Origin: a virus
Virus record (IMG/VR): IMGVR_UViG_3300045999_005852
Location: 1 to 29,335 of that record
Strand: one strand, 5' to 3'
Length of the DNA: 29,335 nucleotides
Position 1 is the stretch's first letter; each line of letters opens with the position of its first letter. The translations under genes and the position numbers were made by a program. Shown here one piece after another: positions 8,670 through 27,910 of the stretch. The notes beneath the pieces are model-generated. The model was not told the origin of the DNA. It did no database searches and worked only from the letters and a program-made list of their open reading frames with translations.

Positions 8670-10340
8670 TTAGAGGGTATTCAAACCGCTAACTAATACT
8701 TTACCATAGAATTCAGGACGTAACATCTTCTTAGCATAGCGAGTCAACAGACCTTTACGTGGAGTGAAGGTGTTTGGATCGTAGATAAGAGGTGTCATGA
8801 TCAATGGAATGTAAGGAGCAAATACAGCACCTGCTTCCAAGAATTGCTTACCGCGGAAACCTAATAAGATAGTATTTTCAGTCATGTAAGGATTCTTATA
8901 AACAGTGTAACGGCTGTTGAATTGACCTGCTTTTTGTACACCAAATGCATATTCCATATCAGCAGCATCACCATTGCTGTTAGCAGCGAATCCAGGGATA
9001 GACTCGATGATTGTAGCTACAGTTGGAGAAACTACCATGAAGTTAGCACCACCACGAAGGGTTAATTGGTGAATACGATTGCTGATCTTTTGAAGTTTAG
9101 TACCAAGAGTTTGGAACCATCCACCTTGAGTGTTATAGAAACCACCACCAGCTACAGTTGCAGCATCAAAAGCGGTTTTTGTAGCGTTAATAAAGTTATT
9201 ATTAACAGCACTCCAGTACTCAACGTTAGTTGTTGGAACATCTGCGATCAACATATCAAGGATTTCGAGGTCGATTTCCAATGAGATGTACTCACTCATG
9301 ATGTTAGTCAATTCAGCTTCAGCATCCAAGTTTTGGTAAGCATTCAAGTCTTGAGCAAATTCAGGAGTCCATACAGCCTTCAACTTTTTAGTCTTAGCGG
9401 TGATGGCTTGAGATTGCATAGAAATGTTAATTTCTGGGATAGAAATTGTGCTATTGCTTTGAGCGTTAGGTGTAGAGTAAGTAGGTAAAGTTGTATTTGT
9501 TGGATCTTCAAAATCACCACGAGCATTATCAGCTGTTTTCTTGTTGTAGAATACAATCACAGATGAACCTTGAATAGGAGCAACTGAAGCAGATACAACA
9601 AAGATTACATTAGTACCATCAAATGTAGTGAATGCTGGTAAGTTATCAGCAACACTTAAAGTAGCGGCAGATTGTGAAACAATGAAACCACGTACTGCGT
9701 CTGGGTCATAACCTGAAAGGCTAGATACAGGTACAGATATTGTTTTGTAACCATTAGCTGCTGCTGATGCTGAAAAATCTGAATCAAAGTTAAGGGTTTT
9801 CCAAGTAGCTGATCCAGTTGTTGCTACAGCTGAAGCTGAGAATTGGTTAGTAGAGTAAGTAAAACGACCAGCGCCATATAAACCACCAGCAGTAGCTGTA
9901 GTTGAGAATGGTGTGTTTGGATCACTAGCATTACGAGTACCATACATAGAACCACCTGAAGTGAATGGATTCTTAGTAGTACCATATTGGAAATCTAAGA
10001 AGAATACCAGACCTGAAGGTAAGTTCATTGGTTGAACGCTAACGAATTCTTTTGCTGCGATCTGACCAAATACCTTACGTACTAAAGGAAGTGCAATACC
10101 AGCCCAGTTTTCACCATTTGTACCAGAGCTAAAAGAAGACTGAGTACCGGTCTGAGATGCTTCTACTACTAATTGCTTTGCTTGGTTTTCCAACATCAAA
10201 GCCATGTTGTTCTTGTTGACGTCTTCACCAAGACCTTCCAAAAGGCCGGTTTTTTCCCACTTGTTTGCTAATTTAGCAGCATCACCTTGAAGTGATCTCC
10301 ATGGGTTGGCAGACTCAACTAATTGTTGAATTGTTTCCAT
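8670..10340 (-). CDS. Major capsid protein (T4 gp23-like)
   Basis: A 556-residue HK97-fold capsid protein of the T4 gp23 type. Recognisable blocks include an N-terminal KWEKTGLLEGLGE (compare NKWKPLLEGEGLPE in gp23) and VSVQPMNLPSGLVFFLDFQYG at about 103-123 (compare VQPMNSPTGQVFALRAVYG). The N-terminal 60 residues are the probable delta peptide: QLVVE|AS at residues 56-62 sits where gp23 is cut after residue 65 (FLTE|A). A Ser/Ala/Thr-rich segment (about 140-290) likely forms the insertion and surface domain. It is preceded by the scaffold gene with a 38-bp gap and followed by a strong terminator, forming a two-gene unit. Codon use appears less AT-biased than its neighbours, as expected for a highly expressed gene. 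Confidence 0.95.
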   Translation of the reverse strand: METIQQLVESANPWRSLQGDAAKLANKWEKTGLLEGLGEDVNKNNMALMLENQAKQLVVEASQTGTQSSFSSGTNGENWAGIALPLVRKVFGQIAAKEFVSVQPMNLPSGLVFFLDFQYGTTKNPFTSGGSMYGTRNASDPNTPFSTTATAGGLYGAGRFTYSTNQFSASAVATTGSATWKTLNFDSDFSASAAANGYKTISVPVSSLSGYDPDAVRGFIVSQSAATLSVADNLPAFTTFDGTNVIFVVSASVAPIQGSSVIVFYNKKTADNARGDFEDPTNTTLPTYSTPNAQSNSTISIPEINISMQSQAITAKTKKLKAVWTPEFAQDLNAYQNLDAEAELTNIMSEYISLEIDLEILDMLIADVPTTNVEYWSAVNNNFINATKTAFDAATVAGGGFYNTQGGWFQTLGTKLQKISNRIHQLTLRGGANFMVVSPTVATIIESIPGFAANSNGDAADMEYAFGVQKAGQFNSRYTVYKNPYMTENTILLGFRGKQFLEAGAVFAPYIPLIMTPLIYDPNTFTPRKGLLTRYAKKMLRPEFYGKVLVSGLNTL

Positions 10341-10378: not shown

Positions 10379-11665
10379 TTACTTTTTGAGGCCAGCAAGT
10401 CTTTGCATACGTGCAAAAGCTTCATTAGCTTCAATAATTGGTTGTTTAGGGGTAGCAGTTCCGATTGTTTTAGAAGCTGATCCTAATGATTCTTTAATTT
10501 GATTCTTTTTAGCTGTAGTAGCTTTAAAAGATTCAGTTAAAGTTTCGAATACGAGCTTAACTTCTTTAACAGTTTCTGCTTTGTCAAACGTGTTTAAAAC
10601 CTTGATTTTTTCTGATTCGGTAAGATTCTTAGCTTTGAAGATTTTGTTGGTGTAAAGAAGCTTAGCGTTTAATAGATTAACTTCATTGAGTTCATTACGA
10701 AGCTCAGCTATAGCTGCATATGCTTCTTCAAGTTCAGTAGAGTCAATTTCACCAAGAGCAATATTACCACTTGATACTCCACTACCTATAGCCGCTAATC
10801 CTTTTAAATTTGGATCAACATTATATTTAGTGTAAGCATATGTTAGACTTTTAACTAAATCAGCTGCGTCATCTTGTAAATTGAATTCTTTTGCTCTTGA
10901 TCTGAATTTTAAAATTAATTCAGTCATTTTCTTTTGAATTTCAACTTCTTTTTCTTTGTCTTTAGCTGTTTTAGCTTGTTCTAATTCATCCATCAGTTTT
11001 ACTACTTCAGGCTGGCTAAAAAATGTTTCTTGGGCTTTAACATATCTTTTATCTTTAAATACCCCAGCTACTTTATCAGCTATTTTTTTAGCTATTCCAA
11101 ATACTCCTTCTTTCATAGGTGTTTCTTCTTCTTCCATAGAATTCATTTCAGCAAGGAGTTCTTCAAGATTGATTTCTTCATCAATATCTTCAACTTCTTC
11201 ATCATCCATGTCTTCCATGTCTTCCATTTCTTCTTCTTCACCTTCTTCTTCGCCTTCACCAGGCATAAGCTTACCAGATGCGATCATGTCATCAATGACT
11301 TGCATAACGAGTTCTTCAATTTCTTCGTCAGACATTTCTTCAAGCATTAGATCTTCATCTAATGACTCTTCAGTCATACCTTCCTCTTCCATTGGTTTCT
11401 CGTTACCTTCTTCCATTGATAACTCGGCAAGAATTTCTTCAAGATTAAAATCTTCTTCTAATCCTTCTTCTTCCATGCCGTACATTTCATTCACACTCTC
11501 TTCAGTCACTTCTTCCTCTAATTCAAGCTCATTTAACTTTTCAGCAAACATAGCAGTGAGTTGGGGAGTAAATGCTTCTTCGAGAGCTACTTTTGCGCTT
11601 GCGATTGCTGTTTCTCTAATGGTTTTAGCATCAGCAATGCATTCTTTTAGCATTTCTCTGTTCAT
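10379..11665 (-). CDS. Prohead scaffold/core protein (T4 gp22-like) with C-terminal tag
   Basis: A 428-residue acidic, helical protein immediately before the capsid gene, the position of T4 gp22, the main core protein on which the head is built. I choose the ATG at 11663-11665, with GAGG a few bases upstream; the frame is open a little further to a TTG at 11674, which is less likely. Residues about 35-180 are extremely Glu/Asp/Met-rich; about 205-270 and 310-400 are charged coiled-coil-like helices. The C-terminus is distinctive: IIE (410-412), A, then NEAFARMQRLAGLKK (414-428). This matches the MQKLAG leader at the N-terminus of other proteins in the window, and the preceding IIE|A fits a gp21-type cleavage site. 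The family assignment rests on position, composition and this pattern rather than on strong sequence identity. Confidence 0.8.
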   Translation of the reverse strand: MNREMLKECIADAKTIRETAIASAKVALEEAFTPQLTAMFAEKLNELELEEEVTEESVNEMYGMEEEGLEEDFNLEEILAELSMEEGNEKPMEEEGMTEESLDEDLMLEEMSDEEIEELVMQVIDDMIASGKLMPGEGEEEGEEEEMEDMEDMDDEEVEDIDEEINLEELLAEMNSMEEEETPMKEGVFGIAKKIADKVAGVFKDKRYVKAQETFFSQPEVVKLMDELEQAKTAKDKEKEVEIQKKMTELILKFRSRAKEFNLQDDAADLVKSLTYAYTKYNVDPNLKGLAAIGSGVSSGNIALGEIDSTELEEAYAAIAELRNELNEVNLLNAKLLYTNKIFKAKNLTESEKIKVLNTFDKAETVKEVKLVFETLTESFKATTAKKNQIKESLGSASKTIGTATPKQPIIEANEAFARMQRLAGLKK

Positions 11666-11692
11666 TGTCCTCAAATAAATTTGTTTTGGAAA

Positions 11693-11862: not shown

Positions 11863-12474
11863 TTAAAATATTGGGCATGTTCCATTAGCACAAAGTATGT
11901 CTGTGATAATAGAATTAACTTTATTATATTGATTATATTGTTGAGGTGTTTTAGATTCATTCATCATGCCTTTTTCTTTCATATATGAACCTGGGTTTGA
12001 TGGGGTTGATACAAAGTCCCAACATAGTAATTCAAAGTCATCTTGTACTTCCATCAACTCACCCATTTGTTTTAATGAGCCCATACCACGTGATGATACA
12101 CCTACTGGAATGTTATTTTGGAATAAAGCAGATAATATATTACCTGAAGGTGTAGGTAGGATTTCTATTGCTCCCATTATATTATCTCCATCCCACCATA
12201 TTTTTTTAATGTTATGAGAGACATTTTTTAGGTTAATAATAGAAGAATCAGGGTGATCTAGTTCACCTAATGCTCTATTAGCATTAACACTTTCCATATA
12301 CTTATCAATTTCTCTTTCCCATAAGTCTCTTGAGTAATAACGACCATTACCGTTTTTTACTTCAACAGTAGCTAATATTCCTTGAACTAATATATTACCA
12401 TTACTACCTTTACCTTCAACTAATTTGACAGGTTTAGCAGAGAATGTTTGAGTCTCAATAAGTATCTGTTTCAT
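11863..12474 (-). CDS. Prohead maturation protease (T4 gp21-like)
   Basis: A 203-residue serine protease of the T4 gp21 / herpesvirus-assemblin-like fold that matures the prohead by cutting after (I/L)-x-E. Expected signatures are present: NGRYYSRDLW (43-52), ALGELDHPD (68-76) with catalytic His74, GVSSRGMGS (125-133) with the catalytic Ser at 127/128, and WDFVSTPSNPGSYM (152-165). The extreme N-terminus has ILIE|T and KLVE|G (residues 4-8 and 17-21), possible self-cleavage sites; T4 gp21 also processes itself. The gene follows three core or assembly genes, as gp21 follows gp67/gp68 in T4. Its likely substrates here are the capsid protein, the scaffold and the MQKLAG-tagged proteins. Confidence 0.93.
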   Translation of the reverse strand: MKQILIETQTFSAKPVKLVEGKGSNGNILVQGILATVEVKNGNGRYYSRDLWEREIDKYMESVNANRALGELDHPDSSIINLKNVSHNIKKIWWDGDNIMGAIEILPTPSGNILSALFQNNIPVGVSSRGMGSLKQMGELMEVQDDFELLCWDFVSTPSNPGSYMKEKGMMNESKTPQQYNQYNKVNSIITDILCANGTCPIF

Positions 12475-19701: not shown

Positions 19702-20094
19702 TTAATTTAGTTGATCTACAGTAAATCCTAATTTACTAGCTGTTTCTTCTTTATTTGCTGTAAGTTCTTCCATATCATCAGGACCAGCATATTCACTCTC
19801 GTATGTGTTTAATCCAGCATATTTGTCAACTAACTCAAAATATTCAGGTCCTTTCATTTGAGTGATTTTTGCTTTGATTTGCTCTTTTTCTTTTTCAGCA
19901 TTATCCATTATATCAACTTCTTCTCCAGTTTCATCATCTGTGAAAGTACCATATCCTTGATCAGCTGTGTAGTGGTAATCAATATAATCTTTTATTAAAG
20001 ATAATAAATTTTCAGATTCATTTAGTGATTTATTCATTTGGTTCTCAGTGATCAAACCAGCTAATTTCTGCATTTTGAGGAACTCTCTATTCAT
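19702..20094 (-). CDS. MQKLAG-tagged small acidic protein (putative internal head protein)
   Basis: With the start set at the ATG at 20092-20094, the protein has 130 residues and begins MNREFLKMQKLAGLITENQM. The frame is open 21 codons further (to 20157), but that extension is AT-derived, lacks the shared leader position and overlaps the upstream gene, so I reject it. The first 17 residues closely match those of the protein starting at 21114. L-I-T-E|N at 14-18 fits a gp21-type protease site. The rest is acidic and helical (KDYIDYHYTADQGYGTFTDD, KEKEQIKAKITQMKGPEYFE), with no known family. By analogy with the capsid-targeting leaders of T4 internal proteins, it may be packed into the prohead and trimmed. 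That role is inference. Confidence 0.65.
   Translation of the reverse strand: MNREFLKMQKLAGLITENQMNKSLNESENLLSLIKDYIDYHYTADQGYGTFTDDETGEEVDIMDNAEKEKEQIKAKITQMKGPEYFELVDKYAGLNTYESEYAGPDDMEELTANKEETASKLGFTVDQLN
20044..20094 (-). repeat. Leader-peptide repeat, copy A
   Basis: Coding DNA for the MQKLAG leader. It matches copy B (21064-21114) at about 80% of positions, with an identical 18-bp core at 20069-20086 and 21089-21106, and resembles copy C (27404-27454). The similarity extends to DNA level, suggesting duplication of a leader cassette. Confidence 0.8.
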
Positions 20095-20100
20095 TATATC

Positions 20101-20121
20101 AGTATGTTTTAATATAAATAT
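20101..20121 (-). repeat. 21-bp direct repeat upstream of a tagged gene (copy 1)
   Basis: Exactly identical to 21135-21155. It contains the TATAAATAT motif at 20113-20121, 19 bp before the chosen ATG. Both copies lie just upstream of MQKLAG-leader genes. Confidence 0.9.
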
Positions 20122-20131
20122 CAAAAAAAAA

Positions 20132-20410
20132 TTAACTGTTAAATACAAAATCTTCACCTTCTATGAATCCACCTACATCACCTGCTTCCCATTGAAATCT
20201 CCAAATTCCATTATTGTCTTTTTGACCATAAACAGGAATATTATCATTTTCTAAATCATTATTAGCCCAAAATTTTTCTTTGGTAAGTGTTTCACCCTCA
20301 TCATAATCCATTAGTATATCATTAGGTTTTTTAGGAGCGTTTTTCCACTTAAATGTGTCCCATCTAGAATCATAGCAGCTGTCAATCACATCAATATATT
20401 GTGAATCCAT
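20132..20410 (-). CDS. Small hypothetical protein
   Basis: A 92-residue acidic protein of unknown family, between two MQKLAG-tagged genes but without the tag itself. It is rich in Asp, Trp and aromatic residues (CYDSRWDTFKWKNAP, GIWRFQWEAGDVGGFIEGED) and has no membrane segment. The ATG is 17 bp after the upstream stop, so it is probably co-transcribed with the tagged gene before it; no motif or SD separates them. It could be a partner of the tagged protein. The C-terminus ends DFVFNS. Confidence 0.55.
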   Translation of the reverse strand: MDSQYIDVIDSCYDSRWDTFKWKNAPKKPNDILMDYDEGETLTKEKFWANNDLENDNIPVYGQKDNNGIWRFQWEAGDVGGFIEGEDFVFNS

Positions 20411-20427
20411 AACTATTAATTTTATTT

Positions 20428-21114
20428 TTAAGCAATTTCAATCCCTGCTCTTTCTATAGCATTATAGATATTTTTTACTAACTCTTTCTCTTGATTAGTC
20501 CAAGTACTGTCATCATATGAGTTAGCTTTATTACCAAGAACATTAAATAATTCATTTAAAAAATCCATATATGTTTCTTGGTTTAAAGATCCACCAGACA
20601 TTTGATTTCCAAATTTACTATTTCCATAAGCTTCTAAAGCTTTACGAGCCTTAGTAAAATTTCCACCCATAGCATCTGCTACTGAGTCTACTAAATCTGT
20701 ATTTTCCATTTCATCATATAATGATTCAAGATCTGTAACAGGGTAAGGAGTTTGAGAGATAATTTTTTCAATAGTATCAAAATCACTTTGATTTTCATTT
20801 ACTTGACCTTCAGATATTGAATCAAAATATTCAGGCACATATTCAACTCTAGTTCCTTCTTCATTTTCCATTTCCTCTCCAACTTTCATTACTTCATCCC
20901 CAGCATGAATTAAAATCTCTCCCTTAGGAGCATTATAATCAGGATCATGAGCTACCATCGCTCCACTTTTATTAGGTGAATTATAAACTAGATACCAATC
21001 TACATTAGATGTATGAGTTGGTTGGAAATAATCTTCATTTTCAGTTAATTGCTTAAATTGACCTTCAGTAATAATACCAGCCATTTTTTGCATTTTGAGG
21101 AACTCTTTGTTCAT
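20428..21114 (-). CDS. MQKLAG-tagged acidic protein (putative internal head protein)
   Basis: A 228-residue protein beginning MNKEFLKMQKMAGIITEGQF. I-T-E|G (15-18) fits the cleavage rule of gp21-type proteases, so the mature form would start at residue 18. The remainder is acidic; a beta-rich part (about 35-95, with VDWYLVYNSPNKSGAMVAHD and GEILIHAGDEVMKVGEE) is followed by a helical part (about 115-228, e.g. DLESLYDEMENTDLVDSVAD). No catalytic motif is recognised. An ISE|G at 104-107 could be a second cut. Upstream lies a 21-bp repeat shared with the other tagged gene. I infer cargo of the prohead by analogy with T4 IPs and their N-terminal capsid-targeting sequences. Confidence 0.65.
   Translation of the reverse strand: MNKEFLKMQKMAGIITEGQFKQLTENEDYFQPTHTSNVDWYLVYNSPNKSGAMVAHDPDYNAPKGEILIHAGDEVMKVGEEMENEEGTRVEYVPEYFDSISEGQVNENQSDFDTIEKIISQTPYPVTDLESLYDEMENTDLVDSVADAMGGNFTKARKALEAYGNSKFGNQMSGGSLNQETYMDFLNELFNVLGNKANSYDDSTWTNQEKELVKNIYNAIERAGIEIA
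21064..21114 (-). repeat. Leader-peptide repeat, copy B
   Basis: Codes for the first 17 residues of the protein starting at 21114. It shares an exact 18-bp core with copy A and the motif GCATTTT-x-AGGAA with copy C. Confidence 0.8.
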
Positions 21115-21134: not shown

Positions 21135-21155
21135 AGTATGTTTTAATATAAATAT
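21135..21155 (-). repeat. 21-bp direct repeat upstream of a tagged gene (copy 2)
   Basis: Exact copy of 20101-20121, 20 bp before the tagged ATG (the other copy is 6 bp before its ATG). It contains the TATAAATAT motif at 21147-21155, which overlaps the stop codon of the gene at 21155-21412. Confidence 0.9.
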
Positions 21156-27217: not shown

Positions 27218-27910
27218 TTAAATTTGATCGATAAGATTGTTAATATACATTTTTATGTCTTCTTTTTCAAATCCATCTTGCATCCAATCTGTTGATAAAA
27301 TACGAAGTTTAGCTTTTAATGTTGCTAAATCTTGAATATTAGCTAATCCTTCTATACGATCAAATCCTTCAGTTAAAGGGTTTTTTTTTTGATTATATTG
27401 AGTCTCAGTAATAATACCTGCTAATTTTTGCATTTTAAGGAATGACTCATTCATAATGTTGTATTCTTTATCATTCTTTTCAGCATCTGCTTTTAATTTT
27501 GCTTCTTCATCATCTGACAATTTCATTTCATCCATGGTATATGTTTCGTCAACATATGTTTCATCCATTGTGTTCGCTGTTTCATCAACAGTTTCCTCTT
27601 TATCTGTTTCAGCATCAGTGGTTACTTCTTTGCCTTTGTTTTTCTTAGCTTTTTGCTTTTCTAATTTTCCTTTTTTATTTTTAAGGTCTTTTAATTTCTT
27701 TTTAAGCTCATTAATTTTACCTGTATCCATTAAATCCTTAACTTCTTCTAAGTTTTCAGCAGTAGCGATTTTTTCTTCACACATTTTAATAGCTTTGTCA
27801 TATTCAGCTAATCTAGCTTCCATGGCAGCGGCTTCAGCTACAGCTTCAATTTCTTTAATATGATCACCAACTGCTTCTCTTATGAGGGAACGTAATTTTT
27901 CTATTTGCAT
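27218..27910 (-). CDS. Charged coiled-coil protein with internal MQKLAG tag
   Basis: A 230-residue protein in three parts. Residues 1-30 are an amphipathic leader (MQIEKLRSLIREAVGDHIKE, then AVAE|A). Residues about 30-150 are highly charged: coiled-coil lysine runs (KKLKDLKNKKGKLEKQ) and then an acidic tract (ETDKEETVDE). Residues 153-169 are MNESFLKMQKLAGIITE, the tag that other genes carry at their N-terminus; an ATG stands at 27452-27454 at exactly this point. The final 60 residues are helical. It may be a fusion of a core-like protein with a tagged cargo, or two in-frame start sites may give a full-length and a 78-residue product. The codons after the tag contain ten consecutive A bases. 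Confidence 0.6.
   Translation of the reverse strand: MQIEKLRSLIREAVGDHIKEIEAVAEAAAMEARLAEYDKAIKMCEEKIATAENLEEVKDLMDTGKINELKKKLKDLKNKKGKLEKQKAKKNKGKEVTTDAETDKEETVDETANTMDETYVDETYTMDEMKLSDDEEAKLKADAEKNDKEYNIMNESFLKMQKLAGIITETQYNQKKNPLTEGFDRIEGLANIQDLATLKAKLRILSTDWMQDGFEKEDIKMYINNLIDQI
27381..27390 (-). other. Run of ten A bases in coding strand (slippage-prone site)
   Basis: Ten T bases on the plus strand give CAA AAA AAA AAC in the reading frame, containing the slippery heptamer A-AAA-AAC. A shift in either direction meets a stop within a few codons (about 3 for either), producing a truncated product ending just past the tag. Slippage is inferred only. Confidence 0.4.
27404..27454 (-). repeat. 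Leader-peptide repeat, copy C (internal)
   Basis: DNA coding for the internal tag of the protein at 27218-27910. It resembles copies A and B (GCATTTT then AAGGAA) but here lies inside a longer frame. Confidence 0.75.

Follow-up and report, generated by a model that had tools for sequence, protein, structure and literature searches.

A peptide shared by the scaffold C-terminus and otherwise unrelated proteins as a candidate capsid-targeting tag in T4-like phages related to immuto

Why should two otherwise dissimilar phage proteins begin with nearly the same 17 residues? The question is raised by a stretch of 29,335 nucleotides (IMG/VR record IMGVR_UViG_3300045999_005852; hereafter, the window), a fragment from a T4-like phage. 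Among cultured phages, Flavobacterium phage immuto is its nearest relative, judging by the major capsid protein (Table 1). The sequence-only reading regarded the shared start as a leader that sends proteins into the capsid and is removed there by a gp21-type protease. Both open reading frames were found where it had placed them, starting with M-N-[R/K]-EFLKMQK-[L/M]-AG-[L/I]-ITE; 14 of the 17 residues were identical and the remainder were conservative (K/R, L/M, L/I). The gp21-type protease that it had reported in the same window was also recovered. Targeting to the capsid was retained as the best reading, given the diversity of the cargo, an exchange of leaders and a link that had been missed, namely, that the tag core and the C-terminal peptide of the scaffold protein are identical.

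Copies and anatomy of the tag

The window was scanned with a scoring profile trained solely on the tagged cargo of contigs other than the one scanned. Three tagged proteins scored 44.9–46.8 bits and the scaffold C-terminus 31.5 bits, against -1.0 for the next best of 12,848 positions; the resemblance is not due to chance. With a tag pattern and then this profile, the count of two copies was raised to four, the additional ones being an internal copy and the scaffold C-terminus (Table 1). Where residues were identical, the codons often were not (they differed in 23,920 of 65,487 such codon pairs), so that the tag is conserved at the protein level, and conservation at the DNA level was ruled out.

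Table 1. Features of the window related to the tag, the head genes and the promoter-like element
Feature	Position	Strand	Remarks
Major capsid protein	8670..10340	-	phrog_138, 9.8e-66; 56% identity to immuto
Scaffold/prohead-core protein	10379..11674	-	acidic, 428 aa from ATG at 11665; between protease and major capsid genes
Scaffold C-terminal peptide ANEAFARMQRLAGLKK	10382..10429	-	tag core; predicted short helix 415-423 behind disordered linker
PIIE directly before the scaffold terminal peptide	10430..10441	-	candidate [I/L]-x-E protease site; E412 nearly invariant
Head maturation (prohead) protease, gp21-type	11863..12474	-	phrog_207, 2.6e-55
Tagged cargo protein 1	19702..20094	-	130 aa from ATG; no known domain
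Full conserved leader unit MNREFLKMQKLAGLITENQMNKSLNE of cargo protein 1	20017..20094	-	second L-x-E at end
Leader core MNREFLKMQKLAGLITE of cargo protein 1	20044..20094	-	46.8 bits
Promoter-like element TATTTATA upstream of cargo gene 1	20113..20120	-	
Untagged protein separating the two tagged genes	20132..20410	-	homologues in L066 and L165 tagged
Tagged cargo protein 2	20428..21114	-	228 aa; leader, VDWY module, all-helical module (AlphaFold2, confident)
Junction ISEGQVNE between the modules of cargo protein 2	20794..20817	-	matches leader end ITENQIKQVNE of the single-module L224 protein; [I]-x-E and [V]-x-E kept
Full leader unit MNKEFLKMQKMAGIITEGQFKQLTE of cargo protein 2	21040..21114	-	swapped in homologues at LTE/N for MKVSELKQIIKEEIVKALAE/N
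Leader core MNKEFLKMQKMAGIITE of cargo protein 2	21064..21114	-	44.9 bits
Promoter-like element TATTTATA upstream of cargo gene 2	21147..21154	-	
Two-part protein	27218..27910	-	second-leader-type N-terminal half (MQIEKLRSLIREA), internal tag, variable C-terminal part
Internal tag copy MNESFLKMQKLAGIITE	27404..27454	-	residues 153-169 of the two-part protein, then ...NPLTE; 45.5 bits
Tag peptide written out, one form: MKKQILSEQFRRMQKLAGIITE...			

When the cargo clusters were weighted equally, conservation extended from M-4 to E+21 (F = 0) and was near zero from +24 on. The conserved unit ended at about residue 25–26 in a second [L/I]-x-E (LTE or LNE), directly after which conservation stopped. 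The ITE was thus confirmed at residues 15–17 but not as the end of the leader, which runs on for about nine residues to the second L-x-E. Because ITE belonged to the search pattern, its frequency is no independent evidence, whereas a second [IL]xE within +13 to +23 occurred in 57% of the cargo clusters versus 2–15% in later windows. An L-[NS]-E was found upstream of the F in 14 of 50 clusters. A [QE]-[YF]-x-x-K was conserved after ITE, and AlphaFold2 predicted leader helices at residues 3–11 and 17–25, with ITE between them, at modest confidence.

The N-terminal half of the protein with the internal copy showed homology to a portion of a long protein from the head region of the relatives L069 and L007. 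Members of its family (L182, L098, L123, and L141) had a conserved acidic N-terminal half, the internal tag and then either a stop within approximately 15 residues or an extra variable domain of up to ~230 aa; the family looks like a fusion platform.

The C-terminus of the scaffold protein

A gp22-type scaffold is an acidic, helical protein whose gene lies between those of the prohead protease and the major capsid protein, and the product of 10379–11674 agreed with this in gene order, composition and helical prediction. It gave no PHROG match, and hence none to a named scaffold family profile; it is identified by the position of its gene, by its composition and by its relatives. The protein ends in ...PIIE-ANEAFARMQRLAGLKK followed by a stop, and the copy of the tag pattern there, NEAFARMQRLAGLKK, adjoins the major capsid gene. 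The core common to the tag and the scaffold end is F-x-[KR]-MQ-[KR]-LAG-[LI]; only the first half of the tag is shared, because the scaffold protein terminates at LAG-[LI]-x, without ITE...LxE. The short helix of the scaffold tail was predicted by AlphaFold2 at modest confidence. Within the scaffolds, the near-invariant E412 stands in I-[IV]-E or a similar sequence. Given the flanking [I/L]-x-E in the cargo, the peptide is therefore bracketed in both settings by motifs of the gp21 type, [I/L]-x-E being a short motif.

Residues R419, L423, and A424 were invariant over 29 scaffolds, down to 25% identity and including those of RM378 and a 484-kb phage. With the cargo-tag profile, the scaffold tail ranked third in immuto, behind the tagged gp083 and gp230 (23.7 versus 3.6 for the next). 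In Microcystis phage Mel-JY01 it was the top-ranking of 108,235 positions (11.1), and no tagged cargo was seen among the same positions. In scans of the head region only of two distant relatives, it ranked second in RM378 (LLDLERIKRLAGL followed by a stop) and third in LR756508. Since the scaffold peptide is kept in a phage without tagged cargo, its use in the scaffold may well be older than its use on cargo. Covariation of the scaffold tail with the tags of the same genome was anecdotal and limited to immuto (SEQV and SEQF); a strict covariation was not supported in G004, where the scaffold has MKKLAG and the tags have MQKLAG.

Distribution, cargo and exchange of leaders

The search of further phage genomes that the sequence-only reading had proposed was carried out with the exact tag pattern (39 bases, ITE included), which was found in 107 IMG/VR stretches, whereas 84,980 genomes of bacteria and archaea gave no match. 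At 105 of the 107 tag loci, proteins related to those of the window or of immuto were encoded. The tag-pattern proteins and the relatives of the scaffold together amounted to 139 distinct motif-bearing proteins, with the motif N-terminal in 90, internal in 18, near-C-terminal in 8, and C-terminal in 23 (essentially scaffolds); that is, 26 of 116 non-scaffold cases were internal or near-C-terminal. Once the tag was masked, the cargo fell into about 50 unrelated clusters. When 51 representatives of the tagged cargo were scanned with Pfam and PHROG, almost no functional domain was recognised, and in a Foldseek search of the PDB with the AlphaFold2 model of cargo protein 2 no structure matched at E ≤ 0.001. 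Long records (128–163 kb) had four to six core-pattern matches each, counting the scaffold, and tagged genes often adjoined one another. Proteins of ~880–940 aa (L151:9992–12790, L148, L117, and L091) carried an N-terminal tag core without ITE (MNKEFLRMQQLAGVKPAQ...) and had no Pfam domain above the cut-off; they are possibly large injected proteins.

The leader could be replaced as a unit. In the family of cargo proteins with the VDWY module, the window has MNKEFLKMQKMAGIITEGQFKQLTE/N and four other genomes (L149, L092, L185, and L150) have MKVSELKQIIKEEIVKALAE/N or close variants, the two leaders being joined to the cargo at the same L-x-E/N. L158 and L160 supplied a second pair of homologous cargo proteins with two different leaders. 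The C-terminal part of cargo protein 2 was 96% identical to a protein of L224 in which the leader directly precedes that part; in the window, the VDWY module lies between the leader and the shared part. Cargo protein 2 is thus made of fused modules, each of which has a tag to itself in other genomes. Judged from these sequences, the leader behaves in its exchange and modularity like a detachable address label.

A second recurrent leader, M-K-x-[ST]-[ED]-L-K-x-I-I-K-E-E-I-x-K-x-L-x-E, was observed on unrelated small proteins, including those at window position 27910 (the start of 27218–27910), L149:1436, and L092:4769 and in L160, L100, L123, and others. Forty-seven distinct cases were counted among 3,977 ORFs, with two to six matches per long record (128–163 kb). 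It is likewise terminated by L-x-E, resembles pieces of the long head-region protein (L069), and is probably a parallel targeting leader.

The promoter-like element TATTTATA (coding orientation) was located upstream of many window genes, including both cargo genes, and ATATTTATA occurred 10 times in the gene orientation and never in the opposite one. In immuto, 21 of 63 structural-region genes but 13 of 170 others had TATTTATW no more than 60 bases away (P = 4e-6). It also precedes the gene of the tagged gp230, which is far from the structural genes, by 23 bases; the tagged gp083 has no TATTTATW directly before it, but gp085, two genes upstream, has one. A AATATTTATA element was seen 20–50 bases upstream of structural and tagged genes on the minus strand of the window and in immuto (NC_055915); it is a candidate late promoter, reading as the reverse complement of T4's TATAAATA.

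Interpretation and comparison with known systems

The scaffold of the phage itself ends in the peptide that forms the core of the tag, so it is very probable that tagged cargo is taken into the head by means of the tag. With a probability of roughly three in four, we infer that immuto-like members of the T4-like phages use it as a capsid-targeting propeptide, built on a copy of the scaffold end, and that the cargo would be packaged and then cleaved. This reading is backed by the scaffold identity, the diversity of the cargo, the two [I/L]-x-E sites, the leader exchange at L-x-E, and the structural-type promoter element. It is weakened by the absence of the second half of the tag from the scaffold and by the few long tagged proteins in which the core lacks ITE. 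The terminal helix of the scaffold, held on a flexible linker, would dock the prohead core to a partner, either the coat protein or other core subunits. The cargo tag would be a copy of this docking helix with a processing segment behind it, so that tagged cargo could be co-assembled into the prohead alongside the scaffold. The gp21-type protease would then cut the tag at ITE, at the second [L/I]-x-E (residue ~25) or at both, and the freed mature cargo would stay with the DNA and might be injected. The tag would act N-terminally, internally or near the C-terminus, with cargo modules exchanged behind it. We lean, by a narrower measure, to a broader proposal. In it, the tag would be a natural mimic of the scaffold, copied from its end and effective for packaging wherever it stands in a protein; two or more leader types could replace one another, cargo modules could be exchanged, and a widespread aquatic lineage would load many unrelated proteins into the head in this way.

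The binding partner could instead be the scaffold itself, through tail-to-tail self-association rather than contact with the coat, the mechanism being otherwise that described above. The same peptide on cargo and scaffold could indeed pack together, but identical peptides are more simply explained if they compete for one partner, and we consider self-association possible but the less probable arrangement. It is unlikely that the tag is a helix-turn-helix module of the SHOCT type, which would join proteins to one another or to a complex outside the head by oligomerisation or peptide binding. Its helices would be FLKMQKLAG and ESQYKEKLNE with GLIT as the turn, and ITE would cap helix 2 rather than serve as a protease site. 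The predicted helices on both sides of ITE and the conserved [QE]-[YF]-x-x-K fit this, as do weak Pfam SHOCT matches of some tags (E 0.0013, 18.8 bits); however, five of eight tag or scaffold-tail peptides had no match, the scaffold has helix 1 only, and the swap with an unrelated leader falls exactly at the following L-x-E. Such a fold would itself suit targeting, so the two readings are compatible. Pfam SHOCT domains are usually C-terminal in cellular proteins. They share with the tag G-[IL]-IT-x-x-[EQ]-[FY] between two short helices, but the best tag score of 18.8 bits lies below the curated cut-off of 27 bits.

Recent duplication and recombination of the 5' end of a gene, with no targeting role, would agree with the adjacency of many tagged genes and the shuffling of modules. 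It is very improbable, since the peptide is kept while synonymous codons diverge, the cargo spans some 50 unrelated clusters, the match is strong to one specific scaffold end, and the tag also stands at internal and near-C-terminal positions.

For a capsid-targeting tag, the functional class is already known from the capsid targeting sequence (CTS) of T4. Internal proteins of the T4 type are known mostly from enterobacterial phages, and we know of no work that has settled how the CTS is recognised. The CTS propeptides of T4 direct internal proteins to the core, 10 residues suffice, targeting and processing are separable, and gp22 co-purifies with internal proteins (PMC9026906); T-even internal proteins are diverse defence proteins with the CTS as their sole common part (PMC3012670). 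IPI, IPII, IPIII, and Alt resemble the tagged proteins in having a short conserved N-terminal leader with an I/L-x-E end before diverse mature proteins, in a T4-like phage that encodes a gp21-type protease. One leader on otherwise unrelated proteins and an I/L-x-E leader end beside such a protease gene are found here as well. The tag is distinct in sequence from the T4 leader, as had been claimed (MNKEFLKMQKLAGLITE versus MKTYQEFIAE): the T4 head-gene and IP-gene regions scored -3.9 or lower with the cargo-tag profile, which gives no homology to the CTS. The claim that I-T-E stands at the same distance as in T4 (14–17 residues) proved too loose, as T4 leaders end at residue 10 (IPII and IPIII: MKTYQEFIAE) or 19 (IPI: ...STITE). 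The tag also differs from the CTS in its length of ~25 residues, its two candidate sites, its core identical to the scaffold C-terminus, the alternative leader on the same cargo, and its position, which is not strictly N-terminal, as in the window protein 27218–27910. There is some likeness between the CTS and the first residues of gp22 in T4 (EFIAEA versus EQLIAEA), but we gave this no weight because it extends little beyond the cleavage motif.

The giant phages SPN3US and phiKZ are comparable in that propeptides of diverged inner head proteins have a shared N-terminal peptide and protease motifs, the N-terminal 15 residues of SPN3US gp53 and gp54 being identical (PMC5694885); those propeptides are mostly >100 residues, however, and no gp22-type scaffold is confirmed there. 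According to an extract of PMC12474303, the C-terminus of the herpesvirus scaffold binds the major capsid protein and is cut off by the maturational protease. The tag phage scaffold similarly has a C-terminal end set off by a candidate maturation protease site, but the comparison is an analogy: coat binding by the phage scaffold is presumed, and the extract describes no cargo with the herpesvirus peptide.

Literature searches found no paper on MQKLAG, no virion proteomics of immuto or Mel-JY01, no virion or cleavage data on any tagged protein, and no tag that copies the end of a scaffold, can be used in various positions and alternates with a second leader. As the tag equals the scaffold end, a concrete binding element is named and its docking partner becomes testable. 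The signature picks out dozens of candidate injected proteins, possibly anti-defence or host-takeover factors, in uncultured phages whose cargo is almost without known domains, and the peptide may offer a naturally occurring tag with which heads could be loaded with proteins. In immuto (NC_055915), the region at 19–37 kb encodes queuosine-type DNA modification genes (QueC, QueD, QueE, FolE, and DpdA), and restriction evasion is therefore a plausible role for its packaged proteins.
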